Shown here piece after piece: positions 1-35,554 of a stretch of 40,935 nt of DNA. The position numbers and the translations under genes are program-made. Where the stretch lies: the IMG/VR virus record IMGVR_UViG_3300024298_000021, positions 1 through 40,935 of that record. One strand, given 5' to 3'. The stretch is from a virus. The notes beneath the pieces were generated by a model that had not been told where the DNA came from, searched no databases, and worked only from the letters and a program-made list of their open reading frames with translations. The first letter of the stretch is position 1. Each line of letters starts with the position of its first letter.

Positions 1-1185
1 AAAGTCAATTGTTCGCTCTAATTCAGAAACTAGTTCAGGCATTAATTTAGGATTTAAAAAATCAGGATCCATTAATTGAGGAACATCAAACCAAATTAAT
101 TGACGACCTTTATTAAATTGTTTTCTTAATTTAAGAATATTTTCAATGTAGTTATAAAATCCTGTATAACTTAACACATTAAAAGTAATAATAAATGTTA
201 AACTATGTTTTTCACTATTTTGCAAATAATCACATACGTTGTTATACAGTAAATTAAAATCCATCCCGTTGCGAATATATTCTGCTTGTTCTCCCCAAGA
301 ATCTAAAGAACAATATAACATAAAATGATCAATGGCGTTTGCATCAGTAATTTCTTTAAGACTTGTCATAAACTTTTTCCACTGATCGCCAGGTGGACAA
401 CAATTACTAGTTATACTTAAATGTAAATCTTTTTTAGGATGTTCTTTAACGTAATCAAACATACGAAATGTGTTCTTGTCCATTAGCGGCTCGCCGCCAG
501 TCATACGGAAAGTATGTAGTGTTGGGTATATTTGAGGCAACCATTCCCAGAATGCTAACAAATAGGGATTATCAGGACCATTATCAATATTAAGACTTTT
601 CATCCAATTGATATCATTGTGCCATCTATCCTTTAAAATAAATGCTCCATTTGCTTGAACGTCTTTATGCCAGGCAGTAGATAGATGAGGACTGCAATAA
701 CTACATTTAAAATTACAGGCTTGGTTAAAATTAACTTCGACATATCTTGGATTAGAATTACCCAAGTAGCCTATTAACTGTGCTTCATCAATTAAACCAT
801 CTTCCCACACATCCTTGCTACGGTAAGCACGATCACTTAACTGTGTTCCACTATCTTCAATTTGCCAACAAAATTCGCATTCGTTAGGACGAGTTCCCTC
901 TAACATTAACTTTCGTTGTTCTTTTTTATACTTTGTATTATGCAATGCACTAACATCAATACGTATTTCTTCTAATGGAACTTGATGTGCTCTAGGATGG
1001 TAACAACTGTGTGTCTTACCTGTAGGAATATGTATACTAACATTATACCATTTAGCCAAACAAAAACTAGGACTTACTTCATTAAGTTTTTTTTGAACGT
1101 AGTCAGCGTCGGCAAAGTATCTAGATTCATACTTGCCATTTATTTCTTTCAACTCGTTGCCTTTTATATTACGGTTGTATTCCAC
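1..1185 (-). CDS. Twitch-type radical SAM protein (3' end beyond window)
   Basis: Probable radical SAM enzyme that cleaves S-adenosylmethionine with a 4Fe-4S cluster; the substrate is unknown. Numbered from the GTG start, the cluster motif CNFKCSYC (CxxxCxxC) lies at residues 157-164 and the SAM-binding TGGEP at 229-233. An N-terminal cysteine region (C61 in SCYHPR, C103 and C106 in CEFCW) is typical of the twitch-domain subfamily. The frame is open to base 1, giving 395 residues with the C terminus missing, so any C-terminal auxiliary-cluster cysteines cannot be seen. I chose GTG at 1185 because AAGGAA lies 7 bases upstream; this overlaps the preceding gene by 17 bases. A TTG at 1152, with AAAAGG 7 bases upstream, is a credible alternative. 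It is the last visible gene of the glycosyltransferase cassette, which suggests a role in modifying a peptide or sugar made or used by its neighbours. The family call is firm and the role is inferred. Confidence 0.88.
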   Translation of the reverse strand, partial: MEYNRNIKGNELKEINGKYESRYFADADYVQKKLNEVSPSFCLAKWYNVSIHIPTGKTHSCYHPRAHQVPLEEIRIDVSALHNTKYKKEQRKLMLEGTRPNECEFCWQIEDSGTQLSDRAYRSKDVWEDGLIDEAQLIGYLGNSNPRYVEVNFNQACNFKCSYCSPHLSTAWHKDVQANGAFILKDRWHNDINWMKSLNIDNGPDNPYLLAFWEWLPQIYPTLHTFRMTGGEPLMDKNTFRMFDYVKEHPKKDLHLSITSNCCPPGDQWKKFMTSLKEITDANAIDHFMLYCSLDSWGEQAEYIRNGMDFNLLYNNVCDYLQNSEKHSLTFIITFNVLSYTGFYNYIENILKLRKQFNKGRQLIWFDVPQLMDPDFLNPKLMPELVSELERTIDF

Positions 1186-3451
1186 TAAACTGTTCCTTTA
1201 ACCATTCAAAGTCATTAATTTTTCTTAATGCATCGGGATTGTTTTTATTTTCTTCTCCGTACTTACGTCCTGCAATAGCACCTGCAATTGCATACTTGCC
1301 ATATTGTTTATCAATTCCTAATGAACACCAAGCATCTAATCTTTGTTGTGTTTCATCTTCATATTGACGTTCAATTACACGACTTGATAATTTACAACAT
1401 TCTCTAAATGCTGATCTCCAGGTTGCAAACTCATCTGTATTAAACGAATTAATGTTCGATACATCATCCATAGCTTTAAATTTTTTAGATATAGAAGTTG
1501 TCATATCCGGAGTTGTTACATCCATTGATAATGTTAATAGTCTTGGTAATAATTTTACACCACCGTTACCATATTCTAAATCGTTTATTGGGTTTCTACT
1601 ACGCCACACGTGAACACAATCTATGTCATAACTAGACATAGTTAGATCAAAATTAAAATTATCTTCAATGATTGCATCGCCATCAACTATCCATATCATA
1701 TCAGTGTTACACATTTCAGCTGCCTTAATATGCGCTTGATGTATTCCTTTAACACCGTGGACTCTTTTTGCTCGAGGACACTTGACCAGCAATCTATTAT
1801 AATTTTCATCTGCATTAGGTTCGTTGTAACTGATAAAAACAACGTCATATAATCGATGCTTAGAAACTAAACGATCGTGTTCTTTTCTTTCTATTAAAAA
1901 TCGATGTTTAAATTCTCGATGACCTATAACCTTTGTCTTTGAAAATAATGCTAACCCGTTAATATAAATTTCTGTACCGTTAAACATATGTTTGAACATA
2001 TGATTTTCTTTTCTATCGTGATCGGACTTGCCGTCGTTAGGATCAAAATATAAATCAAAAACTGTTTCGTCAGTTATATCAATTTCTGGCCATATTCCCC
2101 AAAACAAAGGTTGAGTTTCTTTTTCTATAATTTGTTGATATTCATCATAGGTAGTTAACGTATATCTATTATATCTATATCGGCTAACAACACGATTGTG
2201 TTCTTTTTTATCAATTAAATATCGTCTATTAAATTCTCTTTGAGAAATAATTTTAGATGTTGAACATAGAACAAGACCATTTAAATAGGATTCTTTATCA
2301 TTGCATAAATTTTTAAACATATGATTTTCTTCTCTATCGTGATCATATTTGCCGTCGTTAGGATCAAAATATAAATCAAAAATAGTATTATCTAAAATTT
2401 CAATGTTAGGCCATATGCACCAAAACATTTTTTGTTTTTCGTTTTTAACAATTTCTAAATATTGATCGTATGTTGATATATTGTATACTGGATATTGAAA
2501 TTTGCTTGCTACAATATTATATTCTTTTTTATCAGTGGCATATTGACTTTCAAACTCTGTTGGGGACATCTGTTTATACTTACTGCAAAGAACCATGCCG
2601 CTTATATAAGACTCAACATCATTACATAAATTTTTAAAAATATGATTTTCTCTACGATCATATGTATTATGATGACTAAAGTATAAATCAAGTACCGATT
2701 CATTTATAATTTTAGTCTCGGGCCATACGACCCAAAACATATCATCTTTAATTTGTTGATATTCTTCAAATGTATTAGGAGAATATACACTATATTTTTT
2801 CGGTGTACTTGCAACAATATCTATTTCTTTTTTATCTGCAAAAAATCTATGATAAAATTCTCTCTTAGAAACTTTTACATTTTTTGGAAATAAGCAAATG
2901 CCGTCAAAAAATTCTCCATTTTTAAAAATATGGACAATATTAGAATTATGCTTAGGAACTTTATAATTAAATTTAAAATCTTTTTTGACATTTACGTCAG
3001 GCCAAATTGCCCAAAACATATCTGTATTAGAATGTTCAATAGCATTTAAATAATCATCGTAATTATTAATATTAAATTTATCGTATCCTAACGGAACACT
3101 GGCAACTATATCTATTTCTTTTTTGTCTGTAAAAAATCTATTATCAAATTCTCTTTGAGAAATTGTAGTTGATTTAGGAAACAAACATATACCATCATAG
3201 TGTTCACTGTTTTTAAAAACGTGAACATACATATCGTCCCACTTAGTGGCTTTGTACTCTGTTAAATTAAACGTATCTACTAAATCTATATCGTCCCAGA
3301 TAACCCAGAACATTTTTGTAAAAGATTTAGATTTAATCTGATCATATGTTGTTATGTTTGTCAAACGTTGAGATAACGGATACTTAGATTTTATTTTTAG
3401 CCAAGTATCGTCATTTCCTTCAGTTTTAGAAACATAAAAAATATCATACAT
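1169..3451 (-). CDS. Five degenerate glycosyltransferase-like repeats fused to an intact DxD glycosyltransferase domain
   Basis: A 760-residue protein. Residues about 534-752 form a GT-A-like domain aligning end to end with the 299-residue protein encoded just upstream. Shared landmarks are YDVVFISYNEPNAD, AKRVHGVKG, NTDMIWIVDGDA (DGD at 590-592) and YGNGGVKLLPR. The first 530 residues hold five repeats of 93-107 residues. Each carries MFWxIWP[DEN] (starting at 47, 145, 238, 342 and 449) where the real domain has MIWIVDGD, then a VHxFKN or NHMFKN strand, a DGICLFPK-like strand and a closing DKKExxxVAS (109, 206, 307, 414, 521). The first repeat begins YDIFYVSKTEGNDD, matching YDVVFISYNEPNAD. 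The repeats therefore look like glycosyltransferase cores that have lost the metal-binding DxD. I infer an acceptor-binding or scaffold role for them and catalysis by the last domain. The gene overlaps its upstream neighbour by 8 bases. Confidence 0.85.
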   Translation of the reverse strand: MYDIFYVSKTEGNDDTWLKIKSKYPLSQRLTNITTYDQIKSKSFTKMFWVIWDDIDLVDTFNLTEYKATKWDDMYVHVFKNSEHYDGICLFPKSTTISQREFDNRFFTDKKEIDIVASVPLGYDKFNINNYDDYLNAIEHSNTDMFWAIWPDVNVKKDFKFNYKVPKHNSNIVHIFKNGEFFDGICLFPKNVKVSKREFYHRFFADKKEIDIVASTPKKYSVYSPNTFEEYQQIKDDMFWVVWPETKIINESVLDLYFSHHNTYDRRENHIFKNLCNDVESYISGMVLCSKYKQMSPTEFESQYATDKKEYNIVASKFQYPVYNISTYDQYLEIVKNEKQKMFWCIWPNIEILDNTIFDLYFDPNDGKYDHDREENHMFKNLCNDKESYLNGLVLCSTSKIISQREFNRRYLIDKKEHNRVVSRYRYNRYTLTTYDEYQQIIEKETQPLFWGIWPEIDITDETVFDLYFDPNDGKSDHDRKENHMFKHMFNGTEIYINGLALFSKTKVIGHREFKHRFLIERKEHDRLVSKHRLYDVVFISYNEPNADENYNRLLVKCPRAKRVHGVKGIHQAHIKAAEMCNTDMIWIVDGDAIIEDNFNFDLTMSSYDIDCVHVWRSRNPINDLEYGNGGVKLLPRLLTLSMDVTTPDMTTSISKKFKAMDDVSNINSFNTDEFATWRSAFRECCKLSSRVIERQYEDETQQRLDAWCSLGIDKQYGKYAIAGAIAGRKYGEENKNNPDALRKINDFEWLKEQFSGIQP
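1193..1198 (-). promoter_or_regulatory. Ribosome-binding site choosing the GTG start of the radical SAM gene
   Basis: AAGGAA on the minus strand, 7 bases before GTG at 1185, inside the end of the 760-residue gene. It favours the GTG over the downstream TTG at 1152, whose AAAAGG (1160-1165) has equal spacing but a weaker core. Confidence 0.5.
1995..2061 (-). repeat. Direct DNA repeat, copy in repeat 5
   Basis: 67-base stretch matching 2316-2382 with 4 mismatches by eye. It encodes FDLYFDPNDGKSDHDRKENH and the next residues of repeat 5. The spacing of 321 bases is exactly 107 codons, so the reading frame is kept. Confidence 0.9.
2316..2382 (-). repeat. Direct DNA repeat, copy in repeat 4
   Basis: 67-base partner of 1995-2061, differing at 4 positions by eye. 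It encodes FDLYFDPNDGKYDHDREENH and the next residues of repeat 4. Identity at DNA level, including silent positions, points to recent duplication or gene conversion. Confidence 0.9.
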
Positions 3452-4343
3452 TTGCAGGTACCGGCATCTTAAAATATGTATCGTTTAGATTCATTGTTTC
3501 ATTGTATAAATCTAATGTATATTTGCTTTGACGTGCATCTAACCACGGCCAGTCTAATCCTAATTCGTGTTTAATTTTAGTTCCGTAATCTTGTGCATCT
3601 TCTTCTACAAAGGTATGATTAACTTTTGTTTCATATATTTCTCTTAGGATTTCAAAATCTCTAACGTCAACATAATTCCAATCTGTACAATTAGTCATCC
3701 AGGTTCCCATACGAGCACCTAATACTGCATAAGTACCGTGTTCTTCGTGAGCTCCAACTGTTGACCACATACGTAATCTATGAATATTGTGCCACCATAT
3801 GTGTTGTTTAATTTCCATAGGAGGTACTTTGACACCGTCAAGGAGAGTCATTTTTACGCCTTCACGAAATCCTGCTCTCCAGGCCTGGAACGGACTTCCA
3901 GTTATAATGCTATCACTAAAACTTAAAGGAAAATTTCGATAACCATCTTCCCAACAAAAATCTACTTGTCCTCTATCACTATCCGAGTTCTCGTGTGTCT
4001 TCATATTAAGAACAAAATCTTTTTTCCAGATTTTTAATCCACCATTACCGTAACGCAGGCCATTGATAACGTTGCGGCCGCACCATCCATAGACCTGTAT
4101 CTTTGGATCGCTCATATCTAAATCAATATTAAAGAATCTAGGATCTACAATATTATCTGCATCAACAGTAATAAACCAATCAGTTTCGCTTTGTTCTGCT
4201 GCTGCTTTGTGTGCGTGATCACTGCCTTTAACACCGTGTACACGTTTTGCCCAAGGCACTTTGGTACAAAGATCAGCGTAGTGTAAATCTGCATTGGGTT
4301 CGTCGTAACTTAAAAAGATAACATCAAATTCTATAGTTTTCAT
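3444..4343 (-). CDS. GT-A-like glycosyltransferase (DxD, DAD)
   Basis: A 299-residue putative glycosyltransferase. The start IEFDVIFLSYDEPNAD is a Rossmann-like first strand. WAKRVHGVKG (31-40) follows, then SETDWFITVDADN with DAD at 61-63, the probable metal and nucleotide-sugar binding motif. RYGNGGLKIWKKDF (97-110) and a Trp/His-rich C-terminal half (IKQHIWWHNIHRLRMW) come next. It is a full-length paralogue of the C-terminal domain of the 760-residue protein that follows. The ATG overlaps the stop of the 207-residue gene as ATGA, so the two are probably translationally coupled. The nucleotide sugar and acceptor cannot be read from the sequence. The fold call rests on motif order, not on a database match. 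Confidence 0.78.
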   Translation of the reverse strand: MKTIEFDVIFLSYDEPNADLHYADLCTKVPWAKRVHGVKGSDHAHKAAAEQSETDWFITVDADNIVDPRFFNIDLDMSDPKIQVYGWCGRNVINGLRYGNGGLKIWKKDFVLNMKTHENSDSDRGQVDFCWEDGYRNFPLSFSDSIITGSPFQAWRAGFREGVKMTLLDGVKVPPMEIKQHIWWHNIHRLRMWSTVGAHEEHGTYAVLGARMGTWMTNCTDWNYVDVRDFEILREIYETKVNHTFVEEDAQDYGTKIKHELGLDWPWLDARQSKYTLDLYNETMNLNDTYFKMPVPANV

Positions 4344-4963
4344 TTGTATTCAATCACATAATTTTTAAACAGACGTCTTGTATAAACGCTAAACGTACTA
4401 TAATCTATATCGTTAATAACCTTGGAATCTCCGATAAGTTCATTAATTTTAACAGAAATTGTATCAAAAATCAAGTTAGGATCGTTATATTCGGTGATGT
4501 AAAATTTCATCTCAGTATCTCCGTCCCAAACAAAATTTCGTTTTTTAACTTCTTGGTTTACCTTTTTTGTTCCGCCAAATTCTTCAGATAACTCTATAAT
4601 TAAAACACCGCTATCAGCTATGTGTGTTATGTACACATCTGGTTTTTCTATTTCGGAATATTTTAAAGAAACAACTCTATGTAAAATATCGTCTAACTTT
4701 GTTAATGTACGAATTTCAGAAATTTCAAATTCATTAGAGTTAATATCAACCAAACACTTTTCAATACCCAATTTTCCATCAATAATAGATTCAGCAATTA
4801 AGGTGTCAATGTTTACTTTATGTTTTTCATCTTTAAATGCTGTGTCAGGCCCTACGGAAATTACTTTTCCGGAAAAAGGATCGAAGACTGCAACGTAATT
4901 AACTTCAGCAATTTTAAAATTAGCTAACCATACATCAAAATCATCAATTACTATTTCTTCCAT
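4340..4963 (-). CDS. Unknown 207-residue protein within the glycosyltransferase cassette
   Basis: I do not recognise this protein. It is acidic, with no signal peptide or membrane segment. It has a strand-rich N-terminal part (VNYVAVFDPFSGKVISVGP at about 22-40), a middle with IADSGVLIIELSEEFGG, and a C-terminal helix-like end (NDIDYSTFSVYTRRLFKNYV). Its start ATG is preceded by GAGGAAATAGT and overlaps the upstream glycosyltransferase by 13 bases. Its stop overlaps the next gene as ATGA. Coupling on both sides to glycosyltransferases suggests a partner or a modified substrate, but no function can be assigned. Another possibility is a small structural protein. Confidence 0.75.
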   Translation of the reverse strand: MEEIVIDDFDVWLANFKIAEVNYVAVFDPFSGKVISVGPDTAFKDEKHKVNIDTLIAESIIDGKLGIEKCLVDINSNEFEISEIRTLTKLDDILHRVVSLKYSEIEKPDVYITHIADSGVLIIELSEEFGGTKKVNQEVKKRNFVWDGDTEMKFYITEYNDPNLIFDTISVKINELIGDSKVINDIDYSTFSVYTRRLFKNYVIEYK

Positions 4964-5790
4964 ACTATTTCCTCTAAAATGCTAACTATTTCTTCTGTAA
5001 TTTTATCTTTTTCAACATAATGAACAATATTATGTTGTTGAAAATTTCCTAATTTTAAATTTCCTTTTTTATTCAAATAAAATCCAATATGATTGCTCCA
5101 CTTGTCAGACGGCCAAGGCCAATTTTGTATCATTGGCTTCATATGTACAATTTTAGGAAATTCTAATTTATAGGCTATTTCTGCCTCAATATCTAAAATT
5201 TTTGCAGACAAGGCAAATGCTTCATCAGTTCCTAACACCTTTGGTTTATATTGTGTTAAAAACAAATTAGAATACTCAGTTGGATTTTTAATTATATATC
5301 GACCTAACTTAAAAAAGTCGTCTGCTAAATTAGAATCTTTTTTAAAGAATGTCCACATAGAATAAAGATTTGGAAGATCATTTTTTGTGAAAGTTTTTCT
5401 ATAAAAATCGTTAGTTACTAAATCTCCACGATATGTATACGTGTCATTAGCTACATATAATTCAGAATTTTCAACAAAATAATCAATCCAGTGGCTGTAA
5501 TCTCTAAAAAATAACATATCGACGTCAAGACACACCGTATGGTCAAATGGAGTTAGTTTATCCATCCAACTTCTACCATCCCAGAATGTTTCTTGACTCC
5601 ATTCGATAACGTGATCAAATACCCAAGAGCTTTTTAATTTGTCTAATTTAGATTTGTCGTCAATGACTATGGCAACTTTATCATAGCCTTCTTTTTGTGT
5701 GTTTTTTATACTAAGTGCCAATGCATATGCCAACTGTAAATAATCTACAGTTTTGTTTTCGGCAACAATTAACAAATATCCAAAATTCAT
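4951..5790 (-). CDS. Glycosyltransferase-like protein (DxD, DVD), family 2 of the cassette
   Basis: A 279-residue putative glycosyltransferase of a different type from the 299-residue one. The N-terminal MNFGYLLIVAENKTVDYLQ leads to a Rossmann-like half ending in LTPFDHTVCLDVDMLFF, with DVD at 89-91. The layout (substrate-side helix, then DxD after a TPYDRTLxxDSD-like strand) recalls GT8-like and related GT-A enzymes. LGTDEAFALSAKILD (about 186-200) resembles the acceptor-side DEA region, and IVHMKPMIQNWPW supplies His and Trp residues near the C terminus. It is paralogous to the 286-residue protein encoded immediately upstream, with which it overlaps by 4 bases (ATGA). The sugar and acceptor are unknown. 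Confidence 0.75.
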   Translation of the reverse strand: MNFGYLLIVAENKTVDYLQLAYALALSIKNTQKEGYDKVAIVIDDKSKLDKLKSSWVFDHVIEWSQETFWDGRSWMDKLTPFDHTVCLDVDMLFFRDYSHWIDYFVENSELYVANDTYTYRGDLVTNDFYRKTFTKNDLPNLYSMWTFFKKDSNLADDFFKLGRYIIKNPTEYSNLFLTQYKPKVLGTDEAFALSAKILDIEAEIAYKLEFPKIVHMKPMIQNWPWPSDKWSNHIGFYLNKKGNLKLGNFQQHNIVHYVEKDKITEEIVSILEEIVWKK

Positions 5791-6647
5791 ATTAAATCCA
5801 ATAATTTATCTTTGTGCCTAATAATACTTTGTTTATTCATAATATGAATATCTATATTGCTCACAGACGAAGGAAAATAATTACTGTCAAGATTGTAATT
5901 TATTAAAAATTTTAATTTGTCATTGTCTACGCTGTACAAAATATCTTTGTCTAATGTTGTTAACACTGGCGGAAGCGAGTTGACTGAGGATTGTTCAAAT
6001 CCGTCTAATATGTGTTTTGCTATACTGAAAGCAATATCATTTCTATACTGTGTAGGATTAAATCCAAAAATGTCTGAATAATATTCATAATTTTCTTTTA
6101 TTAAACCTACCATATCAAAAAATAGTTTAGAATTTTCATTCTTAGTAAACATTACAGTGGTTGCCCAATACATTTTAATTCCAGTATCAGATATATGTTT
6201 ATCTAAATAACCTAATCTATCATTACTATAAATGTCGTTAATAGATTCACCTATCATAACATCGCAATCAACATTCCAGTACTTGTTTAGATGATCTGAA
6301 AAAATTAAATAATCACTGTCAATTAATAATGTTCTATCGTAAGGTGTTAATTCCCAGGCACTATGTCGATTAGAATTTATAAACGGCACAGTTGTAGACT
6401 CCTCACCGTCGTGTAATTTTCTTTGATTGTTTGTAATCGGTCTATCTATAATAATTAAATTTTCAAATACTGACATTGCTTTTTCAAATATGTTTGATTC
6501 TTTCATCCACTCAACAGTCGAAGGATCAGTTACTAAAGATACAGGAACATTTAAATTTTTTTTAGCAAGGCCTCCAGATATTAAAGACATTAATGCGTAA
6601 TCGAGAGTTCGATTATTGTGAGCATAAATTAAAATACCTGTATTCAT
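5787..6647 (-). CDS. Glycosyltransferase-like protein (DxD, DSD), family 2 of the cassette
   Basis: A 286-residue putative glycosyltransferase. It begins MNTGILIYAHNNRTLDYALM, has VSLVTDPSTVEWM near residue 36, and reaches WELTPYDRTLLIDSDYLIFS with DSD at 110-112. The same arrangement as the downstream 279-residue paralogue (LTPFDHTVCLDVDMLFF) identifies the pair. YWATTVMFTKNENSKLFFDM and QYRNDIAFSIAKHILDG match the paralogue's MWTFFKKDSN and DEAFALSAKILD regions. The start ATG overlaps the stop of the 115-residue gene as ATGA. Divergence between the two paralogues suggests two different linkages or acceptors, which is inference. Confidence 0.75.
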   Translation of the reverse strand: MNTGILIYAHNNRTLDYALMSLISGGLAKKNLNVPVSLVTDPSTVEWMKESNIFEKAMSVFENLIIIDRPITNNQRKLHDGEESTTVPFINSNRHSAWELTPYDRTLLIDSDYLIFSDHLNKYWNVDCDVMIGESINDIYSNDRLGYLDKHISDTGIKMYWATTVMFTKNENSKLFFDMVGLIKENYEYYSDIFGFNPTQYRNDIAFSIAKHILDGFEQSSVNSLPPVLTTLDKDILYSVDNDKLKFLINYNLDSNYFPSSVSNIDIHIMNKQSIIRHKDKLLDLI

Positions 6648-8893: not shown

Positions 8894-10702
8894 TTATAAC
8901 ACCAATGCTTCGATTAATTTAACGCCATCGTTACCGTTTGATTCCAATGCCACAGCAAATACATTAGCATAATTGCCGTGTGCAGCAATAGCTGCGCCGC
9001 CTGGTCCTGCAACTAAGCGATCTCCTTTTTTAACTGCGCCGTAAACTTTGCAAGGAACACGACCTTTTAGAGCAATATATGTTCCGCCTTCTAGATCTTT
9101 GTTCATCATATAAGCAGGATTAGTTGAAACTACACCAATTGCACGAGTATTAACATCTGCTGCTGTAACTTCTTTTTCTCCGCCTACTATAACAACTGTA
9201 CCTGGTTCATATTCTTTATCTGTTAGATATTTTTCTGCCAAGTCAGCGTATCTAGCTGCTGTTGCTGTACCATTGAATATATTTGCTGTTAAATTTCCGC
9301 TAGAATCTCTAGCAGCAATAGAATAGGCAGTTGCTGTTAATCTTGCTGTTCTATATTGTGTAGATTCTGTTGAATCACTCCAAGCAGGATCTGTAACTGC
9401 ATTGGTTTTGTCAAGGAATAATTTATCTGTATTATTAGACGTTCCAATAAATTGATTAGCAGTAATGTTACCACTTGTATCTCTAATTGGGATAGATGCT
9501 ACGCCGCCTGCAGGAATATCACTAGTTGCTTCTAGGTCATTTAATTTTCCAGCATTAGTTGCGGTCGATGCTGATCCTGTTACAGAACCAGTTAATGTTC
9601 CTACTAAGGTTGCACCAGTGTATCCAATCTGTTTTGTAGTTCCGTCTATTAATACTGTAGAGTCGGTGGCTAAAACACTTCCTGTATGCGTTCCTGTTGA
9701 ATTTCCAGTAACATTTCCAACAAGACTTCCGGTAAATGTAGTAGAATAAACGTTGACCCATTTACTGCTGTCAGTGCCTAACGAATAAGTGCTGTTATCT
9801 CCAGGCACAATACCTGTTGATGTTATCACAGCAACATCTCTTTCATCAACTGTTGGAACTACTGAAATTCTAAAATATATAGGATTTCCTAACCGGTTTT
9901 CAATAATAGTTTCGTCGCCGTTTTCAACACGAATTCTTAGATCACCGCCGGTTGCATCGCCTACTGTAAATCCAGGATCGCTGAATGCTACTTCAGATGT
10001 AAATGCGTTATCACCAACTCTAATATACTGATCAGCATTGACTCCGCCTAACTGATTCGCATTTTGAGCTGTGCCCCACATAACGTAGTCGTCTGTTGAA
10101 ACACCTGTTTGTGATTTAGCTAGAGTAAATCCTTTCTTAATATATGTAAAATCTTCGATAGGATTTTGTGCATTATCAAGTGTAAATTCAGTTCTACTGA
10201 AAATACCAACAACTTTATCATTTGTAATTACTTTTAATATTGTATGAGGTCCAATATCAGACGAAATAGTTCCTTTTACAACTTCACCAGCTATAATTGA
10301 AGTTCCTAGGTCTGGGCTGGACACTGGACCAACTAACGTATATCCAGTTCCGTTATAGGCATACAACTGTTTTGCTGACGAATCCCACCAAAAATCACCT
10401 GTTGCTAAACCAGACGGTGCTGTAGAACTAACTTCTGCACCGCTAGCAACTTTAAATTTTGACCCGTCATAAAATTTTAATTTTTTATTTTGAGAATCAT
10501 ACCAAATTTGACCTGTTACAGACTTCGGTGGAGGTGTAGTATTTGAAAAATTTTCTAGCAAATGTAGGAAATTTTCGTTTTGAACTTCGCCGTACCCGGC
10601 GTAATTTTTACCAATGAAACGTAAATCTGTAGTTGTATCAATTGTACCGTCTGCAACTGATACTAAAAACGTTCCATTAAATTTGTTAACTTCGTATGCC
10701 AT
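8894..10702 (-). CDS. Long fibre protein with shared N-terminal anchor and unusual C-terminal domain
   Basis: A 602-residue fibre. Residues 1 to about 125 form the anchor shared by four consecutive genes: INKFNG-like start, GKNYAGYGEVQNENFLHLLE, and two GxxWxD..LKxYxG repeats (GQIWYDSQNKKLKFYDG and GDFWWDSSAKQLYAYNG). The shaft has beta-rich repeats such as RDTSGNITANQFIGTSN and RDSSGNLTANIFNGTAT. The last 115 residues (ARYADLAEKYLTDKEYEPG to the end) contain TVVIVGGEKEVT, RAIGVVSTNPAYMMN, YIALKGRVPCKVYG and KKGDRLVAGPGG. This C-terminal type recurs in tailed-phage fibres, where it resembles intramolecular-chaperone-like domains, but I cannot show cleavage. A weak GGGAC precedes the ATG, and a late-promoter-like motif lies in the gap upstream. 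Confidence 0.82.
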   Translation of the reverse strand: MAYEVNKFNGTFLVSVADGTIDTTTDLRFIGKNYAGYGEVQNENFLHLLENFSNTTPPPKSVTGQIWYDSQNKKLKFYDGSKFKVASGAEVSSTAPSGLATGDFWWDSSAKQLYAYNGTGYTLVGPVSSPDLGTSIIAGEVVKGTISSDIGPHTILKVITNDKVVGIFSRTEFTLDNAQNPIEDFTYIKKGFTLAKSQTGVSTDDYVMWGTAQNANQLGGVNADQYIRVGDNAFTSEVAFSDPGFTVGDATGGDLRIRVENGDETIIENRLGNPIYFRISVVPTVDERDVAVITSTGIVPGDNSTYSLGTDSSKWVNVYSTTFTGSLVGNVTGNSTGTHTGSVLATDSTVLIDGTTKQIGYTGATLVGTLTGSVTGSASTATNAGKLNDLEATSDIPAGGVASIPIRDTSGNITANQFIGTSNNTDKLFLDKTNAVTDPAWSDSTESTQYRTARLTATAYSIAARDSSGNLTANIFNGTATAARYADLAEKYLTDKEYEPGTVVIVGGEKEVTAADVNTRAIGVVSTNPAYMMNKDLEGGTYIALKGRVPCKVYGAVKKGDRLVAGPGGAAIAAHGNYANVFAVALESNGNDGVKLIEALVL

Positions 10703-10728
10703 AGTTTAATAGTCCCAAAATGTTTATA

Positions 10729-10735
10729 TATTTAT
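10729..10735 (-). promoter_or_regulatory. Putative late promoter (ATAAATA) before the 602-residue fibre
   Basis: Minus strand reads CTAATAAATATATAAAC in the 45-base gap between two fibre genes, about 27 bases before the ATG at 10702. That leaves room for a transcript start ahead of GGGAC and the start codon. Such 7-mers are common in AT-rich DNA, but this one is in one of the few true gaps. Confidence 0.45.
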
Positions 10736-10747
10736 TAGTTAAACTTC

Positions 10748-13156
10748 TTACAGTTTCATAATGAAGCAAAGTGCATAGTACGGAGGTAAGTTTGCGTTAG
10801 TGCCCGAAGATCCTGTTGAGCTAATGCTTACTGAAATACCTGTACTAGCGTTATCTGTGTTCGATCCGTTATCAGATTTTCCTAACGCCGAGTCAGGAGA
10901 TGTACCGGCTTGCCTTCCTGTTCCAGATCCCATTCGAGTTATTGGGTTGCCATATTGCGTTACATTACTGTGCGAGTGCCCTGGGTCATTAACTGAAGCC
11001 GAGTGCGAGTGGCTTACTACAATCGCATCTTTGCTACCACCTGTTGCTCCGACTGCATAGGTTGAACCTGCGCCTACTATAAAACGGTCTCGTAAATCTG
11101 GGGTGCCGTTGGAGCCGTTACACAACGCCCAACCAGAGGGAATTGATACTACTAATCCGTTCCACATAATAATTCCCCCTGACGGAATACCTGCAAGTGC
11201 AATATTAACTGCACCGCCAAGAGAAACTGTATACCCATTAATAGTAATCGATGGATTTTGTAAGGATGAATTTGGAATGCTTGTAACTTTTGAACCTGCT
11301 AACGTAGTAATCCAACTTGGATTAGAATAAGTTCCTGTAGTATACACACCATTTGTTACTGTTCCAGCATTTCCAGAAACATTACCAATAACATTTCCTA
11401 ATAATCCGCCAACAAATGAATTTGCAGCTATGTTTCCATATACATCTCGAGATGCAACGGTTAAAGGAACATTGTTTGGAGTAGCATCTATCCCAATAGT
11501 AACCGGAAGTGATGAATCGTATAAACTTAAACTACCGCTAGTAGCAGTATTAATCATCGTGATATGATTACCAGCAGTTATTGGTTCTATTCCAATTGAC
11601 GGTTCCCACTGAGGTCCTCCTGGTCTAGCTCTCAGAACAAATCCATCCGGTCCTAAACCCAACGTTGTTGTTGTATCTTGATCTGATTGTATAACTAGAG
11701 CGCCAGCGCCACCGCCAACAATATTAGTTGCTCTTAAGGATAATGTTGCAGTATCTGCATTTCCTTTAAAATTATTAGCATAAACATTGTTAAACTTGTA
11801 ACTTGGTATGCCTAAATTTGTTATGTTATCACCTATTAGTGCAGGAGAATTAGGGCCGCCTAATGACAGCGATGTTAACGTGTCAACAAGTTTTATGTCA
11901 GGTCCAGTTGGGCCTAGATCAAAATTTAATGCTCCTGTTTCAGATCTAATTGTAGGAACACTATCGTCAACAAACAAATTAAATTGAGATGAACTTCCTA
12001 TAGTTATTCCAAGATCTGCTACACTTAACCCTGTTAAAGTTCCTACAGAAGTCAGACTAGACATTAATACGTTAGATGCCAGTGTATTGCCTGTTAATAT
12101 ACCTGCAGGTGCAGGTATTGTTATATCACTTGTACCATCAAAGTTAACACCGTTAATTTTTCTTGCATTGGCTAGTTGAGTAGCTGTTGCCGCATTTCCC
12201 GAAAGTGTTGCGCCAACAAAAGAATTAGCTTCAATAATATTAAATCTACTAGTTCCGCTGGTTGCAGTTACATTGCCAGTTAAATTTCCTACAAATGTAG
12301 CCGTAATTGTACCTGCTGAAAACCCGCCTTCGCTGTTACGAGCTACAATTTTTCCAATAGCATTAGTAGATGATGCGTCTACTGACCAAGTAGTTTCTTG
12401 AGCTCCGTCAAAATCATTTCCTACAATATATGATCCGCTAATCAAAGAACGTGTTGTAGAAGATTTAATAGTTACGTTTGAAGTTCCGTTAAAAGGTACT
12501 CCGTTAATATTTCGACTAGTTTTTAATGCGTCAGCTGTTCCAGCATTACCTGTAACATTTCCATTTATTTTTGATGCTGATGATAAATTAATTCCAGCGG
12601 TTAAATTAGTTTCGAATCCATCTATTGCAGCATAAGGATTTATAGTAAACGCCGATGCTGTACATATTGCAAAAGGAACATCATCTGTTTCAAATATAAG
12701 AACAGGACGTTGATTTCCTACAGTATCATCTAGTGTAGTTGCTCGAACTTTAGTCGATCCAAATCCTCTAACCGCCTCTGGTCCTATTAATTGCCATTCG
12801 GAGCCAGTATACACTTTTAATTGATTAGCATTTGTGTCCAACCAAAAAGATCCGGCTATTGTGGTTGTTGGAGCATCTTGGCTTAAAATTGCTGATCCTA
12901 CAGGAACCCATTCTTCTAAATTATATACTTTGACTAAATTGGCCGAAGTATCAAACCATAATTGCCCGGTTAACGGCCTTGCTGGTGGTTTATTATTAGC
13001 AAAATTTTCTAGCAACCACAGAAAATTTTCATTTTGTGCTTCACCATAGCCAACATAGTTTCTTCCAACTAAGTTGATGCTGGTACTGGTGTCTATAGTA
13101 CCGTCGTCAAGTACTATTAGTTGTTCACCGTTAAATTTATTAATAACGTAAGACAT
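10748..13156 (-). CDS. Long fibre protein with collar-type tip and HxH motifs
   Basis: An 802-residue fibre with the shared anchor (GRNYVGYGEAQNENFLWLLE, GQLWFDTSANLVKVYN, GSFWLDTNANQLKVYTG). The shaft has many short repeats of the type ARKINGVNFDGTSDITI and GNVTGNAGTADALKTSR, a pattern known in phage fibre shafts. The tip starts near residue 655 with IPSGGIIMWNGLVVSIPSGW, followed by ALCNGSNGTPDLRDRFIVGAG, typical of tail-collar-like receptor-binding tips. SHSHSASVNDPGHSHS (about 713-728) has two HxH motifs, which in T4 gp37 and similar tips bind iron within the trimer. The protein ends NLPPYYALCFIMKL. CGGAGCG lies about 7 bases before the ATG. Predicted role: host receptor binding. Confidence 0.86.
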   Translation of the reverse strand: MSYVINKFNGEQLIVLDDGTIDTSTSINLVGRNYVGYGEAQNENFLWLLENFANNKPPARPLTGQLWFDTSANLVKVYNLEEWVPVGSAILSQDAPTTTIAGSFWLDTNANQLKVYTGSEWQLIGPEAVRGFGSTKVRATTLDDTVGNQRPVLIFETDDVPFAICTASAFTINPYAAIDGFETNLTAGINLSSASKINGNVTGNAGTADALKTSRNINGVPFNGTSNVTIKSSTTRSLISGSYIVGNDFDGAQETTWSVDASSTNAIGKIVARNSEGGFSAGTITATFVGNLTGNVTATSGTSRFNIIEANSFVGATLSGNAATATQLANARKINGVNFDGTSDITIPAPAGILTGNTLASNVLMSSLTSVGTLTGLSVADLGITIGSSSQFNLFVDDSVPTIRSETGALNFDLGPTGPDIKLVDTLTSLSLGGPNSPALIGDNITNLGIPSYKFNNVYANNFKGNADTATLSLRATNIVGGGAGALVIQSDQDTTTTLGLGPDGFVLRARPGGPQWEPSIGIEPITAGNHITMINTATSGSLSLYDSSLPVTIGIDATPNNVPLTVASRDVYGNIAANSFVGGLLGNVIGNVSGNAGTVTNGVYTTGTYSNPSWITTLAGSKVTSIPNSSLQNPSITINGYTVSLGGAVNIALAGIPSGGIIMWNGLVVSIPSGWALCNGSNGTPDLRDRFIVGAGSTYAVGATGGSKDAIVVSHSHSASVNDPGHSHSNVTQYGNPITRMGSGTGRQAGTSPDSALGKSDNGSNTDNASTGISVSISSTGSSGTNANLPPYYALCFIMKL

Positions 13157-13174
13157 TTATATCGCTCCGATTGA

Positions 13175-14989
13175 TTATGGTGGTAATAACGTATCTGATT
13201 GCCAAATCCAAGCACCAATGTTTAAAACAAACTCTTTAATAATTCTAGTTGTTACAATTGGTTGGGCAGTTATCGAAGCAGTTGGAAAAGTTATTCCTGT
13301 AACAGCTTGGCCTGTGGCGCCTCCTAAATCTGTTAAGAAGGGGTTAGTATTAACTGTAGGAGGAAGTGAATTGATATCCAATGTAACTGCGTTATTAGTA
13401 TTAATTGTACATAATATTCTTGCCACTGTACCAGACCTAAATTCCGCCGGCGGAGCAAGATTATTTAATATATTAATAATAATATAGGTGTTTGATTTAG
13501 CATCAGATAAATCCATACTGAAAACTAACGGCCTTGTTTCAATTGTATTATCTACATATTCTTTTGTGGCTGCATCTTGCGGATCAATAGGATCAACAAG
13601 ATTTGTAATTCTAGCTGAATCATTTAAAACAACGTTACCAGTACCGTCAGGGAATATTTCAACGTCATAATTACTAGAAACCGTAGATATTCTATGGTTT
13701 TCTAATCTCATTTGAGCTACCGGAGGTGCTCCAGGACCAACGTTAATTACTGTTTGTGTACCAAAAGAACTAACACCCGGAATACTAGTAATACTAGAGC
13801 CTAAACTGTTTCCATCAATAACCTTGGTGCCGCCAATATAAAGAGCCTTGCCAGAATCTAAGTTAAGTGTTTCTGACACATCTAACCAGTTATCAGCGTT
13901 AGAATAGGAAATTGTTTTGTCTGTAGTTCCTTTGATTGTAATTCCAGCACCGTCGGCTGTTGAATTTGTTGGATTAGTGACACTCGCAATGATTATGTTT
14001 TTGTCTTCTACAACTAAATCATTGGTATTAAGTGTTGTGGTTGTTCCCTGAACTTCTAAATTTCCAACAATGGTTAAATCGCCACCTACTCTAACTTGGC
14101 TATCTTCATATCCATAATATAGATCGATTGTTCGTTGAGATGATCCTATAACAACTGCGTTTTCTTGGTTAATGCCTTTTCGAACGTTAAGAATTAAATT
14201 CTTATCGGTTGAAGCGTTTGACATAAAAATGTCACCGCTGGTAACATACAAGTTAGATTGACCGGCTGATCCAATAACTATACCCTGGTCTGTGGTAATT
14301 CGTAGTTGTCCATTAATCGCATTTGATGTATCTCTACGAACATAGGTCGTTGCTACTGCTCCGCCAAGTTGTTCTGAATTTGTTACAGTTACATTAAATT
14401 TTAATCCGTCTAATGTTCCTGCATTAAATCCTGGTTCGATACTACCAGAATATCCAATAATCTCTGCTTTAGGTGTAAAACTGTCTTTAGAAAAAATTCC
14501 TAATAAAATTCCGTTATTATACAAGTATGTAATAACTCGAGTTTGGTTAAGAGTATCGAGAATACTATCAACTTTTAAACCGCTTAATCCTTGTGAAGCT
14601 GAATATGCTGGGCCTAATAAAATAGGATTTGTACCGTCATAAAAATATAATTGGCCGCCAATGTTATCAAACCATAAATCTCCGCTAGCTAGTGTATCTG
14701 GTTGTGTATTTGAAATAGTTGCAGAACTTACCGGTACAAATGTCGATCCGTTGTAAACTTTTAATTTATTTTCAGAAGAATCGTACCATACTTGGCCTTT
14801 AATAGGATGCTCTGGAGCAGTAGTACTTGAAAAATTTTCTAATATTTTAATTAGGTTTTCATTTAATGCTTCGCCAAACCCGCTGTAATTTTTTCCAATA
14901 AGAGTTATGTCAGTTGATAATTCATCAATTTGACCGTCTGCTACTGTTGCTACGATTGTACCGTCTGTTTTATTAATTTGATATGCCAT
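13175..14989 (-). CDS. Long fibre protein with shared anchor and distinct C terminus
   Basis: A 604-residue fibre with the shared anchor (GKNYSGFGEALNENLIKILE, GQVWYDSSENKLKVYNG, GDLWFDNIGGQLYFYDG). A further shared block follows (RVITYLYNNGILLGIFSKDS, about 145-170). The shaft includes LEVQGTTTTLNTNDLVVEDK, a motif widespread in fibres of marine T4-like phages, and NLVDPIDPQDAATKEYVDN, the common coiled linker before a tip. The last 110 residues end IKEFVLNIGAWIWQSDTLLPP and have no collar signature or HxH motif, so the tip differs from its paralogues. The ATG follows the preceding stop by 15 bases, with only a weak TAGG as ribosome-binding site. Confidence 0.82.
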   Translation of the reverse strand: MAYQINKTDGTIVATVADGQIDELSTDITLIGKNYSGFGEALNENLIKILENFSSTTAPEHPIKGQVWYDSSENKLKVYNGSTFVPVSSATISNTQPDTLASGDLWFDNIGGQLYFYDGTNPILLGPAYSASQGLSGLKVDSILDTLNQTRVITYLYNNGILLGIFSKDSFTPKAEIIGYSGSIEPGFNAGTLDGLKFNVTVTNSEQLGGAVATTYVRRDTSNAINGQLRITTDQGIVIGSAGQSNLYVTSGDIFMSNASTDKNLILNVRKGINQENAVVIGSSQRTIDLYYGYEDSQVRVGGDLTIVGNLEVQGTTTTLNTNDLVVEDKNIIIASVTNPTNSTADGAGITIKGTTDKTISYSNADNWLDVSETLNLDSGKALYIGGTKVIDGNSLGSSITSIPGVSSFGTQTVINVGPGAPPVAQMRLENHRISTVSSNYDVEIFPDGTGNVVLNDSARITNLVDPIDPQDAATKEYVDNTIETRPLVFSMDLSDAKSNTYIIINILNNLAPPAEFRSGTVARILCTINTNNAVTLDINSLPPTVNTNPFLTDLGGATGQAVTGITFPTASITAQPIVTTRIIKEFVLNIGAWIWQSDTLLPP

Positions 14990-15004
14990 ATTTTTTTAAC
15001 CTAA

Positions 15005-17116
15005 TTAGAATAACGGTGGACCTGATCTAATAATATAATTAATAGTCAAGTAGGGATTCATAATACCAACAGCCGTACCTAATGTTGTTCCAGTTGGTTT
15101 TTTAATTCCTCCGGAGTCTTTTAAATATTGTGCCTGACCTGGAGCGGTTGGACCTGGTCCAGTAACTGCATCCGGATCAATGGTAGTTGTGACTGCAATA
15201 ACATTATAATCTTGTCTTGACGAACTTAAAGAGTGAGAGTGTTCTGGTAAATTTGATAATGTCAATGTCACAGAACTTTGACCGGCTGTACCTGCTAGAG
15301 TCTGGGCCTTAGTGTCAGTTACTCTGCCTGCTGTGCCGCCACCTGCATCAACATATCCACCTGTTGATATTGGAACTGTGCCTCCGTTGTCCATATTATC
15401 TTTACCTAACGGGAATCTTCCTCTTAGGTCCGGAATTCTAAATGTGTTGACTCCAGTTAACGAACCTGTACCATTATATGTTGTTCCAATTACATCGTAT
15501 AGATCTGGAAATTTTGATCTTTCAACTTCTGATCCATCACAAAATAAAAAACCATAAGGTGCTGTTGCGCCTGCATATGGAATGATGCCACCGATTGGAA
15601 TACCCATATCTCCAACAAATGTGTCTCTTGTTTGTTTTAATAAACCAGACGATATAGTTGTAGATTCGCTTGCTCTATATGTTAATACATAATCTGTCTT
15701 TTTAGATACTTTAGGAAATGGTTCGGACTTACTAGAAATAATGTTTGCAGTAAGAGTTGTGTTAAAAATCTTAGTGTAACTTCCTGTTTGCCCGTCGAAC
15801 TGAATTGCAGGACTAACAACGTCTCCGGATAACTGAAATGTTGTAACATTTTTTAATGATGTCGCTGTGTTAGAATTACCACTAATATTTCCATCAAGGA
15901 CGCCTTGAATGGTATCTGCAATAATTGTTTTAGCCTGTACTGTATTCCATCTCTTTAATCCGGTTCCTAGATTAAAGGTATCAGTTGTTTTTGGTTGTAT
16001 TGTATTAGATTCTAATACTCCAGCAATACTAGCACCCTCGCCAACTAAAAGATTTTTAGAAATTGCTACACCGCCGGCGGTCCTGATGCTTCCGTTATTT
16101 AAATTTGTACTTGCTGTAATATCTGTTACAATAACAGAACCAGTAAGTTTAATGTTTCCGTCAACATCTAATGCTTCAGTAGGACTGGCTTGATTAATAC
16201 CAACTGTATTATCAACTACTTTAAGAATAGTAGAAGGAATACCATTTCTGTTTGTCTGTATATCAATCGAACTGCCTGCTGCCGAATTATAAATCTTAGC
16301 GGTGGTAGCAGTAGTTCCGATATTAAATGTTCCGTCAATACCTACGGTTAAGCCGTTATTATTTCTAATATTAAACGCATAGTCAGTAGTATTAACTGTA
16401 TTAGATCTTAAAAATTTTCCGGCAGCAACTTCAACGCCGCCAATGTTTAAGGCATTTGCATTTTTAGCTGTTCCATATAAAGTAGGAAGGTACCCTCCAA
16501 CAAACTCATTTATTGCAGAGTCTGTTGTTGGCAATGAAATATTCATACCTGATCGAATAATATCAAATCCGGTAATTAAAACTTTTGGGGTAAAACTGTC
16601 TTTAGAAAAAATAATTACAGGAATATCTGCAATATAAAATGTTAAAATATATCGAGTGATGTTATCCGAATCGGAAATACTTTCAACTACTGGTCCGTAT
16701 CTTAAACCGTCTACAGAACTTTCTGCAGGACCAACTAATAGCCAACGTGTGCCTGTAAAAATACGAAGCTGTTGATTAGTTGTATCTACCCATAATTCAC
16801 CAACCTTGCTTTCTGCAACTGCTGGTTCTGTTGTTCCCTTTTGAATTCCCGATGCTGCTTTCCAACTTGTGTTGTCCCACATCATTAGAATTCCGTCATC
16901 GCTCTTATACCAAAGTTGTCCTTCTGTAGGATTCATTGGTTCGTCTGTTGAAGCAAAATTCTCTAATAATGCTAAAAAGTTTTCGGCTACAATCTGACCG
17001 TACCCAGTAACGTTTCTACCTGGAAATGTTAAACTAGTATCAGTGTTTGATGTATTATCAAATACTGTTATAGGAGTCTTATTTGCACTATCTGTAAAAT
17101 TAACAATATATGGCAT
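15005..17116 (-). CDS. Long fibre protein with phage tail collar domain
   Basis: A 703-residue fibre with the shared but most diverged anchor (GRNVTGYGQIVAENFLALLE, GQLWYKSDDGILMMWDNTSW, GELWVDTTNQQLRIFTGTRW). The shaft contains SPTEALDVDGNIKLTGSV and similar beta repeats. A collar domain occupies about residues 504-572: IPIGGIIPYAGATAPYGFLF, CDGSEVERSKFPDLYDVIG, FRIPDLRGRFPLG. LPEHSHSLS supplies one HxH, and the end reads MNPYLTINYIIRSG, the usual end of collar proteins. AGGAG lies about 8 bases before the ATG. It is the first of four fibres after the baseplate genes and may be the one nearest the baseplate, which is inference. Confidence 0.87.
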   Translation of the reverse strand: MPYIVNFTDSANKTPITVFDNTSNTDTSLTFPGRNVTGYGQIVAENFLALLENFASTDEPMNPTEGQLWYKSDDGILMMWDNTSWKAASGIQKGTTEPAVAESKVGELWVDTTNQQLRIFTGTRWLLVGPAESSVDGLRYGPVVESISDSDNITRYILTFYIADIPVIIFSKDSFTPKVLITGFDIIRSGMNISLPTTDSAINEFVGGYLPTLYGTAKNANALNIGGVEVAAGKFLRSNTVNTTDYAFNIRNNNGLTVGIDGTFNIGTTATTAKIYNSAAGSSIDIQTNRNGIPSTILKVVDNTVGINQASPTEALDVDGNIKLTGSVIVTDITASTNLNNGSIRTAGGVAISKNLLVGEGASIAGVLESNTIQPKTTDTFNLGTGLKRWNTVQAKTIIADTIQGVLDGNISGNSNTATSLKNVTTFQLSGDVVSPAIQFDGQTGSYTKIFNTTLTANIISSKSEPFPKVSKKTDYVLTYRASESTTISSGLLKQTRDTFVGDMGIPIGGIIPYAGATAPYGFLFCDGSEVERSKFPDLYDVIGTTYNGTGSLTGVNTFRIPDLRGRFPLGKDNMDNGGTVPISTGGYVDAGGGTAGRVTDTKAQTLAGTAGQSSVTLTLSNLPEHSHSLSSSRQDYNVIAVTTTIDPDAVTGPGPTAPGQAQYLKDSGGIKKPTGTTLGTAVGIMNPYLTINYIIRSGPPLF

Positions 17117-17795: not shown

Positions 17796-17802
17796 TATTT
17801 AT
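17796..17802 (-). promoter_or_regulatory. Putative late promoter (ATAAATA) overlapping a gene junction
   Basis: Minus strand reads CTGAATAAATATATGATG. It includes the TAA stop of the giant gene and lies 1 base from the first ATG of the next gene. If used, transcription would start downstream of that ATG, favouring the internal start at 17767. It could equally be chance in AT-rich DNA. Confidence 0.35.
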
Positions 17803-35068: not shown

Positions 35069-35114
35069 TTCCTATCCCTATACCAATATTTACCATAAAA
35101 ATTATGTGGGTATT

Positions 35115-35552
35115 TTATACTATGATAGAATTGTTTTTATCAAAATTAAACGTCATACGCTCACTAATATTAAATGGAACGTAAACGATATCTGCTTGAA
35201 TTCTTATTCCTTGATCTGTAGTATCGATTTGAATCTCATTAACTGCTATTCTAGGATCGTAATTGATAATATCTTCGACGTCTTTTGCAATAATTTTTTT
35301 AACTTCTTCAGTGAACTGCTCAAATAACATATCCCAGATGACTGTACCAAACTCTGGGTTTTCTAATTTTTCTCCTTTGCGGATATAAAAATGATTTATT
35401 AGATCTTGTTTAACTAGATCAATGTCATAAAGTTTATAATTTTTTGCTCCGTTTGAAGAACTAAATCCCCTATAGGTAAAAGTTCCGTAATTAGTAGTAA
35501 CTTGTGCATTTGATGTTGCAACTGTTTTTTGATTATAAATTTTTGTTCCCAT
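35115..35552 (-). CDS. gp25: Baseplate wedge protein gp25-like
   Basis: 145-residue gp25/GPW family protein, in T4 the wedge subunit that bridges gp6 rings and the sheath. The signature is LVKQDLINHFYIRKGEKLEN followed by PEFGTVIWDMLFEQFTEE (about 46-82). Then come INYDPRIAVNEIQID and a strand VYVPFNISERMTFNFD that ends the family fold. Length matches T4 gp25 (132) plus a short polar N-terminal extension. The ATG is 2 bases after the gp5 stop. The order gp5, gp25, gp6 on one strand supports the call. Confidence 0.93.
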   Translation of the reverse strand: MGTKIYNQKTVATSNAQVTTNYGTFTYRGFSSSNGAKNYKLYDIDLVKQDLINHFYIRKGEKLENPEFGTVIWDMLFEQFTEEVKKIIAKDVEDIINYDPRIAVNEIQIDTTDQGIRIQADIVYVPFNISERMTFNFDKNNSIIV

Positions 35553-35554
35553 AA

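Follow-up and report, generated by a model that had tools for sequence, protein, structure and literature searches.

A variable array of degenerate GT-A modules ahead of one intact glycosyltransferase-like domain in large uncultured phages

What use is an enzyme that carries a row of disabled copies of its own core? The question is posed by p760, a gene in IMG/VR virus record IMGVR_UViG_3300024298_000021 (the window analyzed here is the entire record, 40,935 bp). Its product consists of five degenerate repeats related to glycosyltransferases (GTs) of the GT-A type, named R1 to R5 from the N-terminus, and one intact GT-A domain at the C-terminal end, hereafter the C domain (Table 1). The repeats are about 95-120 amino acids long, with units of approximately 107 residues, and R5 shares 58% amino acid identity with R4. 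The explanation put forward below, as a tentative preference, is that the repeats form a variable non-catalytic acceptor-binding arm of pseudo-GT modules attached to a single working metal-dependent GT-A transferase.

An earlier note on this DNA, made from the letters alone, proposed that the repeats are related to the catalytic domain of the same protein, and set a profile match between the two as a test beforehand. That match was found. Using hhalign, a profile of R1 plus R2 (25 sequences) aligned with a C-domain profile (32 sequences) at a probability of 97.1 and an E-value of 5.7e-11 over 113 columns, practically all of them in R1. Scores from hidden Markov models (HMMs) were also compared with those of 2000 shuffles of the window's catalytic core. 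An HMM from the window's R1-R5 gave the catalytic core 18.8 bits against a shuffle maximum of 10.9 (2000 run, 1977 reported); R1 on its own gave 19.8 bits (maximum 8.6) and R2-R5 gave 16.6 (maximum 7.2), neither score being reached by any of the 2000 shuffles. An HMM of 149 inner repeats from across the family raised the score to 23.9 bits, with a shuffle maximum of 7.1. Applied to the first 79 loci, the five-repeat HMM located the C domain where expected in their complete array proteins (9-24 bits). Together with the shuffle controls and the model of R1 described next, the hhalign result supports the repeats as degenerate GT-A cores, paralogues of the intact domain.

Predicted structures are in keeping with this relationship. 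For the AlphaFold2 model of full-length p760 (32 sequences; mean pLDDT 89), the best Foldseek match in the PDB was K4 chondroitin polymerase (2z86, E 1.6e-6), and the 50 rows listed by VIA were mostly GT-A enzymes and related nucleotidyltransferases. The C domain (residues 534-760) is predicted to have a GT-A, Rossmann-like nucleotide-sugar fold; its VIA match to 9h6j (Z 11.6, 134 residues aligned, root-mean-square deviation 2.5) spans mostly residues 532-672 of the model. As the VIA lists include the nucleotidyltransferases IspD and MobA, the fold by itself does not single out a glycosyltransferase, and the absence of a family from these lists is no evidence. Prediction of the repeats' fold, a check suggested in the earlier note, returned a GT-A core for R1, which aligned end to end with the solved GT-A enzyme 8xlz (Z 8.7, 122 residues, root-mean-square deviation 3.2); profile homology and this alignment together identify R1 as having a GT-A-like core fold. 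R1 and R2 modeled alone reached a pLDDT of 92. For R2-R5, a GT-A-like core is indicated by shared sequence, by the secondary structure of the model and by the HMM comparisons.

What, then, have the repeats lost? In p760, Trp52, Trp150, Trp243, Trp347 and Trp454 stand where the C-terminal DGD motif has Asp590, within ..MFW.xW.. stretches that start at residues 44, 142, 235, 339 and 446. The earlier reading, that Trp stands for the first Asp of the DxD motif in all five repeats, is therefore correct, and the protein has a single D-x-D-bearing GT module in its chain. Across the family, lesions were counted in 131 distinct proteins with a C domain and in 332 repeats scoring above 30 bits and positioned before that domain, a count restricted to arrays whose open reading frame (ORF) also encodes a C domain. 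D-x-D was present in 131 of 131 C domains (DGD in 105, DAD in 26), and Asp was found at the first position of the motif in none of the 332 repeats, where Trp (264), Pro (29), Ser (16), Tyr (10) and other residues occur and two sequences are gapped. The strand-helix-strand at the start (YDIFYVSKTEGNDD...) is retained by R1 alone among the five. In the modeled secondary structure of R2-R5, strand 1 runs directly into the helix before the DxD strand, and helix A and strand 2 are absent, so that these repeats are shortened besides lacking the metal site. Family-wide, the DxD position lies at a distance of about 30 residues in R2 and later repeats, compared with 50 for R1 and 55 for the C domain; the first of these values is offset by a few residues through the cutting of repeat ends, and the usable figure is a shortfall of roughly 20-25 residues. 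All repeats stop at the strand equivalent to residues 657-668, and in the model the helices of residues 674-756 are confined to the last domain. The repeats lack two features of a GT-A enzyme, the DxD motif and the C-terminal helical part with the catalytic base.

Many positions of the C domain are strongly conserved. Among 135 sequences, both Asp residues of the DxD motif are present in every one, 57 positions carry one residue in at least 97%, and D536, E544, D590, D592, D649 and E684 are invariant. A candidate xED base, by position only, is D673, which lies just before the helix of residues 674-690 and is kept in 132 of the 135; the GxGG at 628-631 is a candidate G-loop on the same positional grounds, and no C-His was assigned. 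The invariant Asp pair and the 57 conserved positions suggest that catalysis has been retained.

Five modules turn out to be one state of a variable array. Relatives were collected from IMG/VR in scans that each retained the best 80 stretches, and the sample they give is not free of bias; confirmed stretches numbered 127 with whole p760, 480 with its paralogous neighbor q299, at least 599 with the C-domain profile and at least 545 with the R1+R2 profile, some of the last perhaps containing the catalytic domain only. Array lengths were counted by HMM in these relatives, as the earlier note had recommended. Of the 135 proteins with a full C domain, two cut at the start of their locus were set aside, and in the remaining 133 distinct proteins the number of repeats (n) was 0 in 39, 1 in 13, 2 in 13, 3 in 20, 4 in 23, 5 in 17, 6 in five, 7 in two and 8 in one; strongly diverged repeats would escape detection, so n is a lower bound. 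Five cores before one intact domain is accordingly a true description of p760, but the number five, which the earlier note had stressed, is not special in a family with n = 0-8. The catalytic unit can also stand alone, as seen in a member without repeats that lies directly downstream of q299 (L140) and in many standalone GTs of about 230 amino acids.

Several loci depart from the usual arrangement. In contigs of metagenome-assembled genomes, 7 of 43 pattern matches carry the GT, and none of the seven has a repeat above 30 bits. A contig of 493 kb from a Bdellovibrionia genome has a q299-like GT, a GT and a radical SAM gene in a row (L161:4039-7203) beside MoxR-/DUF58-type genes, which suggests that the trio is chromosomal and exists in cells too. 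Another contig of a metagenome-assembled genome contains one ORF of 550 codons with two C-domain hits of 141 and 368 bits (L159:2985-4634), and looks like a q299-like GT fused to a GT domain. Elsewhere two loci (L190:3362-5669 and L240:3413-5666) have the array divided at a shared position into two overlapping ORFs in different frames. The first holds four repeats; the second, which has an ATG close to its start, holds one repeat plus the GT domain. Array and enzyme may here be made as two proteins, or via a frameshift. A frame break is also seen at L073:5860-7166, where the array occupies two overlapping frames with ORFs of 94 and 347 codons.

Although they are without the metal site, the repeats are maintained by selection. 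Median ratios of nonsynonymous to synonymous change (dN/dS) were 0.15 for R1 (89 pairs), 0.10 for inner repeats (64 pairs) and 0.11 for the C domain (108 pairs), taken from pairs of moderate synonymous divergence among proteins with at least three repeats, the inner repeats being compared between proteins of equal n only; the pairs share sequences and so are not independent. In a first set of 196 repeats, the His of VHxF was present in 196, the Glu of REF in 195 and the three residues of KKE in 189, 193 and 194. By these sequence measures the repeats are under purifying selection comparable to that on the active domain.

Array length, in contrast with the constancy of single modules, differs among close relatives. 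For 38 cassettes with upstream DNA, n was set against sequence identity in the 3.8 kb that precede the array gene. Among pairs with at least 97% flank identity, n differed in none of 11 (six groups of near-identical records); it differed in all six pairs at 93-97% (four independent comparisons, two of which recur through identical copies) and in 7 of 23 at 90-93%. L196 and L193, with n of 3 and 4, have C-domain DNA that is 96% identical, and for L042 and L041, with n of 6 and 8, the figure is 100%. The flanks of two further pairs (L036/L021 and L058/L050) are about 93-94% identical and their C domains 74%, which suggests that alleles of the gene are exchanged too. Between L024 (n = 5) and L033 (n = 4) the sole difference in the gene is one 321 bp unit, a case that is weak alone since short-read assembly can collapse identical neighboring units.

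How might such a protein work? The C-terminal 227 residues would be a working metal-dependent GT-A glycosyltransferase. The N-terminal modules derive from that enzyme's core; all are without the donor and metal site and the catalytic helices of the C-terminal part, and R2 and later modules also lack helix A and strand 2, but selection keeps them. The arm would most likely serve as a multivalent surface that binds without catalysis, its target being a long or multi-site acceptor glycan or a glycosylated virion protein; host surface polysaccharide and the phage's tail fibers are the candidate acceptors. Arm length and inner modules appear to change by gain and loss of units and by allele exchange, with the partner genes constant. 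The variation of n among close relatives suggests that dead copies are retained as an adjustable gripping arm and not as junk, and the Trp found where the metal-binding Asp would be suggests, as a reading of sequence, a site for sugar stacking. In a bolder form, the protein would be a new type of adjustable enzyme and the modules lectin-like subsites built on this Trp, their number and sequence retuned over short evolutionary times so that a conserved transferase can follow changing glycans of host or virion; this extension is speculative and, taken as a whole, somewhat unlikely.

Several observations weigh against an acceptor-binding arm of GT-A descent. The pTM of the full model, 0.60, leaves the relative placement of the modules uncertain. 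A Foldseek search of R1+R2 alone against the PDB was weak (best E 0.01), and best Z values of 7-8 are common for unrelated models, so that homology rests on the sequence profiles and the structures stand in agreement with them, the VIA result on R1 being the structural support for the repeats. An HMM of the window's R3-R5 only gave the catalytic core 5.8 bits, a score matched by 13 of 2000 shuffles, and these repeats are therefore tied to the GT core through their likeness to R1 and R2 and through the family profile. Finally, members with n = 0 occur in the same cassette, which makes the arm dispensable for whatever the cassette does.

Other explanations differ in what they ask of the repeats. 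The GT might have been recruited as a multivalent lectin of the adsorption apparatus, making p760 a receptor-binding component of the virion and not an enzyme of the infected cell. Its position at the end of the tail-fiber module and a turnover of alleles and copy number resembling that of a host-contact gene would fit; the invariant Asp pair of the DxD motif and the C-domain positions conserved at 97% or more, with the retained catalysis they suggest, fit poorly, as does the location of p760 among consecutive GT and radical SAM genes, and this role is judged unlikely. Could the modules instead hold other proteins? As a scaffold they would dock the cassette partners (q299, the two GT-like proteins and the radical SAM protein) or act as a chaperone-like partner, for which COSMC provides a precedent (PMC7185993). 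Conserved genes adjoin the array gene and q299 is paralogous to the C domain, yet the partners are unchanged over n = 0-8, being present at n = 0 in L189, L192, L209, L212 and L213, and an unvarying set of clients leaves the variable number of modules unexplained; a scaffold is quite unlikely on this balance. Neutral tandem duplication, in which functionless repeats expand and shrink freely, would account for differences in n between close relatives, for the n = 0 forms and for the interrupted frames of L073, L190 and L240. It is hardly credible beside repeat dN/dS values of about 0.10-0.15, like those of the active domain, and beside a VHxF His kept in 196 of 196 repeats and REF and KKE residues in 189-195 of 196; the idea of junk repeats is disfavored on both counts.

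A ruler, finally, would make array length correspond to that of a polymer, in particular the shafts of the phage's own fibers; the earlier note had suggested that the array could measure or hold a repetitive acceptor such as a fiber shaft or a polysaccharide. The units are regular, at about 107 residues. However, the summed length of the four fiber genes did not correlate with n (rho -0.17, p 0.35, 33 cassettes), and practically equal fiber lengths accompany n = 2 (L250 and L271) and n = 5 (L263). Taken singly, seven genes gave rho from -0.20 to 0.53, with fib602 at 0.53 (p 0.001) and g224 marginal at 0.36 (p 0.050), in tests uncorrected for multiplicity or kinship; for some cassettes the fib602 figure adds two related genes together. 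The four fiber genes are nearly constant in length over most cassettes while n ranges over 0-8, larger differences being seen in L257, L258, L277 and L279. For these fibers the array as ruler was rejected, there being no overall correlation of length, and the ruler is judged very improbable. An acceptor-binding arm on a working transferase is the reading retained here.

The genes around p760 form a conserved cassette (Table 1). The window runs from baseplate genes through a long virion gene and the four fiber genes to smaller genes, p760 and the radical SAM gene, and its baseplate genes assign it to a myovirus. Its gp6-like wedge protein is 34.6-37.5% identical to those of jumbo phages such as Atu_ph07 and PA5oct (15 matches listed of 61 records). 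The order fibers - g301 - g306 - g115 - GT286 - GT279 - g207 - q299 - array GT - radical SAM holds in most close relatives. Among distinct genes with at least 1.2 kb available on both sides, q299 lies directly upstream in 63 of 77 with n of at least 1 and in 12 of 31 with n = 0; for radical SAM directly downstream the counts are 56 of 77 and 9 of 31, respectively. A family member is found directly downstream of q299 in 80 of 80 loci (the best 80 of 480), over which q299 is 83-93% identical, identical copies aside; the window's q299 and the C domain of p760 share 36% identity (E 3e-34).

Table 1. Features of the window, with positions on the 40,935 bp record.
Feature	Position	Strand	Remarks
Array-GT gene p760	1169..3451	-	760 aa; five degenerate GT-A repeats and one intact GT-A domain
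R1, residues 1-121	3089..3451	-	Fullest repeat; strand 1-helix A-strand 2 present; Trp52
R2, residues 122-216	2804..3088	-	Without helix A-strand 2; Trp150
R3, residues 217-317	2501..2803	-	Trp243
R4, residues 318-424	2180..2500	-	Trp347; 321 bp unit
R5, residues 425-533	1853..2179	-	Trp454
Intact GT-A domain (predicted), residues 534-760 (227 residues)	1172..1852	-	Foldseek and VIA
DxD metal motif Asp590-Gly591-Asp592	1676..1684	-	D-x-D in 131/131 distinct relatives
q299, paralogous GT with intact DAD, partner gene	3444..4343	-	
N-terminal-twitch radical SAM protein	1..1185	-	NCBIfam NF033640, E 2.7e-82, 277 bits (cut-off 170)
g207, 207 aa, conserved-cassette member	4340..4963	-	No Pfam family; weak PHROG matches; synteny
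GT279, 279 aa GT-like protein	4951..5790	-	phrog_1903 (unknown function), E 1.3e-4; DVD motif by eye; synteny
GT286, 286 aa GT-like protein	5787..6647	-	DSD motif by eye; synteny
Four tail-fiber / tail-collar genes	8894..17116	-	PHROG tail families
Baseplate genes (wedge, gp25-like, hub/lysozyme) and virion structural gene	31661..39606	-	

The radical SAM gene extends beyond the edge of the window and overlaps the 3' end of p760. In other loci such genes follow the array gene in series, three in L165 (5653-9651) and four in L174, L180 and L182. Compared with phage records, the radical SAM neighbor matched 23 records of Vibrio phages, at 22-23% identity among the matches listed; the one such locus inspected (L241) lies near ribonucleotide reductase genes and is without an annotated GT. 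GT286 matched no family at a useful level in Pfam, PHROGs or NCBIfam. Of the fiber genes, the one at 15005-17116 matches Pfam Collar (E 4.4e-20), and all four fiber proteins (8894-17116) begin with a segment matched by phrog_14394 and phrog_15511; judged from these matches, this common N-terminal segment is likely to be a shared attachment module. The long virion gene, of 4618 codons (17799-31655, minus strand; phrog_10938), lies between the baseplate wedge and the fiber genes.

Escherichia coli K4 chondroitin polymerase (K4CP; 2z86/2z87), the top fold match of p760 in the PDB, has two active GT-A domains in one chain. It is a multidomain polymerase, and the p760 family differs in combining 0-8 dead modules with one intact domain, the single D-x-D module. 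The N-terminal GT2 domain of K4CP is treated as a GT-A prototype in a review that also gives LARGE1/2 as having two tandem GT-A domains, and COSMC (C1GALT1C1), a pseudo-GT of family GT31, as a GT-A paralogue without DxD and xED that has a non-catalytic role (PMC7185993). COSMC is a scaffold and chaperone of another enzyme, T-synthase, and not a tandem array. LH3 (PLOD3; 6fxr, 6fxm), which appears in the Foldseek list of the p760 model, has an active GT domain beside an inactive GT-A-like accessory domain that, its authors suggest, may aid substrate recognition or partner binding (PMC6082870). Unlike the array of p760, LH3 has one accessory domain, placed after the active one and fused to a lysyl hydroxylase, and its PDB chains gave no sequence match with the C-domain or R1+R2 profile.

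Family databases and isolate records did not recognize the array. No Pfam or NCBIfam family exceeded its cut-off for p760 or q299; Pfam Glycos_transf_2 / Glyco_tranf_2_3 gave the window's domain 18.1 bits, under the cut-off of 27, and, with E-values of 1 or below (the lowest being 0.0008), matched 13 and 14 of the 32 members. PHROGs gave a best E of 0.014 for p760, and 0.013 or worse over p760 and q299. PDB sequences had no match to the C-domain profile at E up to 10, and a single chance-level one, a hemocyanin (E 4.4), to the R1+R2 profile. In tblastn searches of 50,697 phage records, a set that may omit near records, p760, the C domain, R4, q299, g207 and two standalone GTs found no credible match at the settings used; at E up to 10, 50 records were matched, of which the 40 listed are chance hits (E 3-8), mostly to fibritin genes. 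Annotation based on isolates therefore overlooks the family. In BFVD, by far the best Foldseek matches were two proteins of uncultured Caudovirales phages annotated 'Uncharacterized protein', A0A6J5LK21 (804 aa; E 1.5e-34 over 920 gapped columns) and A0A6J5L5L5 (1076 aa; E 2.2e-29 over 1163), which on the strength of these model comparisons very likely belong to the array-GT family.

Comparable settings or gene sets have been described in other aquatic phages. In pelagimyophages, a host recognition cluster combines tail fibers, glycosyltransferases and cassettes of radical SAM genes within a single variable region, and modification of the host O chain against co-infection has been proposed (PMC7029224). 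The setting of p760, with its fibers, two GT-like genes, GT paralogue and radical SAM gene, resembles this cluster, in which GT8 is the commonest GT family; the available text makes no mention of a tandem array of dead GTs. The 'Moraphages', large phages from aquatic metagenomes, have four groups of glycosyltransferases among their widespread genes, and the main text available uses 'repeat' once, for terminal repeats, and 'tandem' never (PMC12619734), the comparison being by description. Titles and the starts of abstracts in the openly licensed literature yielded no tandem array of inactive GT-A modules. The earlier note's statement that no described family is known with five degenerate GT-A cores before an intact domain agrees with these searches, no family with several such cores being found in this literature, Pfam, NCBIfam, PHROGs or PDB sequences.

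A single inactive GT-A domain beside or near an active one is already known, from LH3 and COSMC. No description was found, in the literature searched, of a variable array of 1-8 such modules that arose from the core of the enzyme itself, is maintained by purifying selection and varies in length among close relatives. The carriers are a group of large uncultured water-dwelling bacterial viruses, and the family is common in environmental viral contigs (the at least 545 stretches found by the R1+R2 profile). The array GT offers a marker for a phage cassette of adsorption or host-surface genes that includes glycosyltransferases and radical SAM enzymes, and its forms from n = 0 to 8 in one gene slot provide a natural series for studying the role of non-catalytic GT modules.

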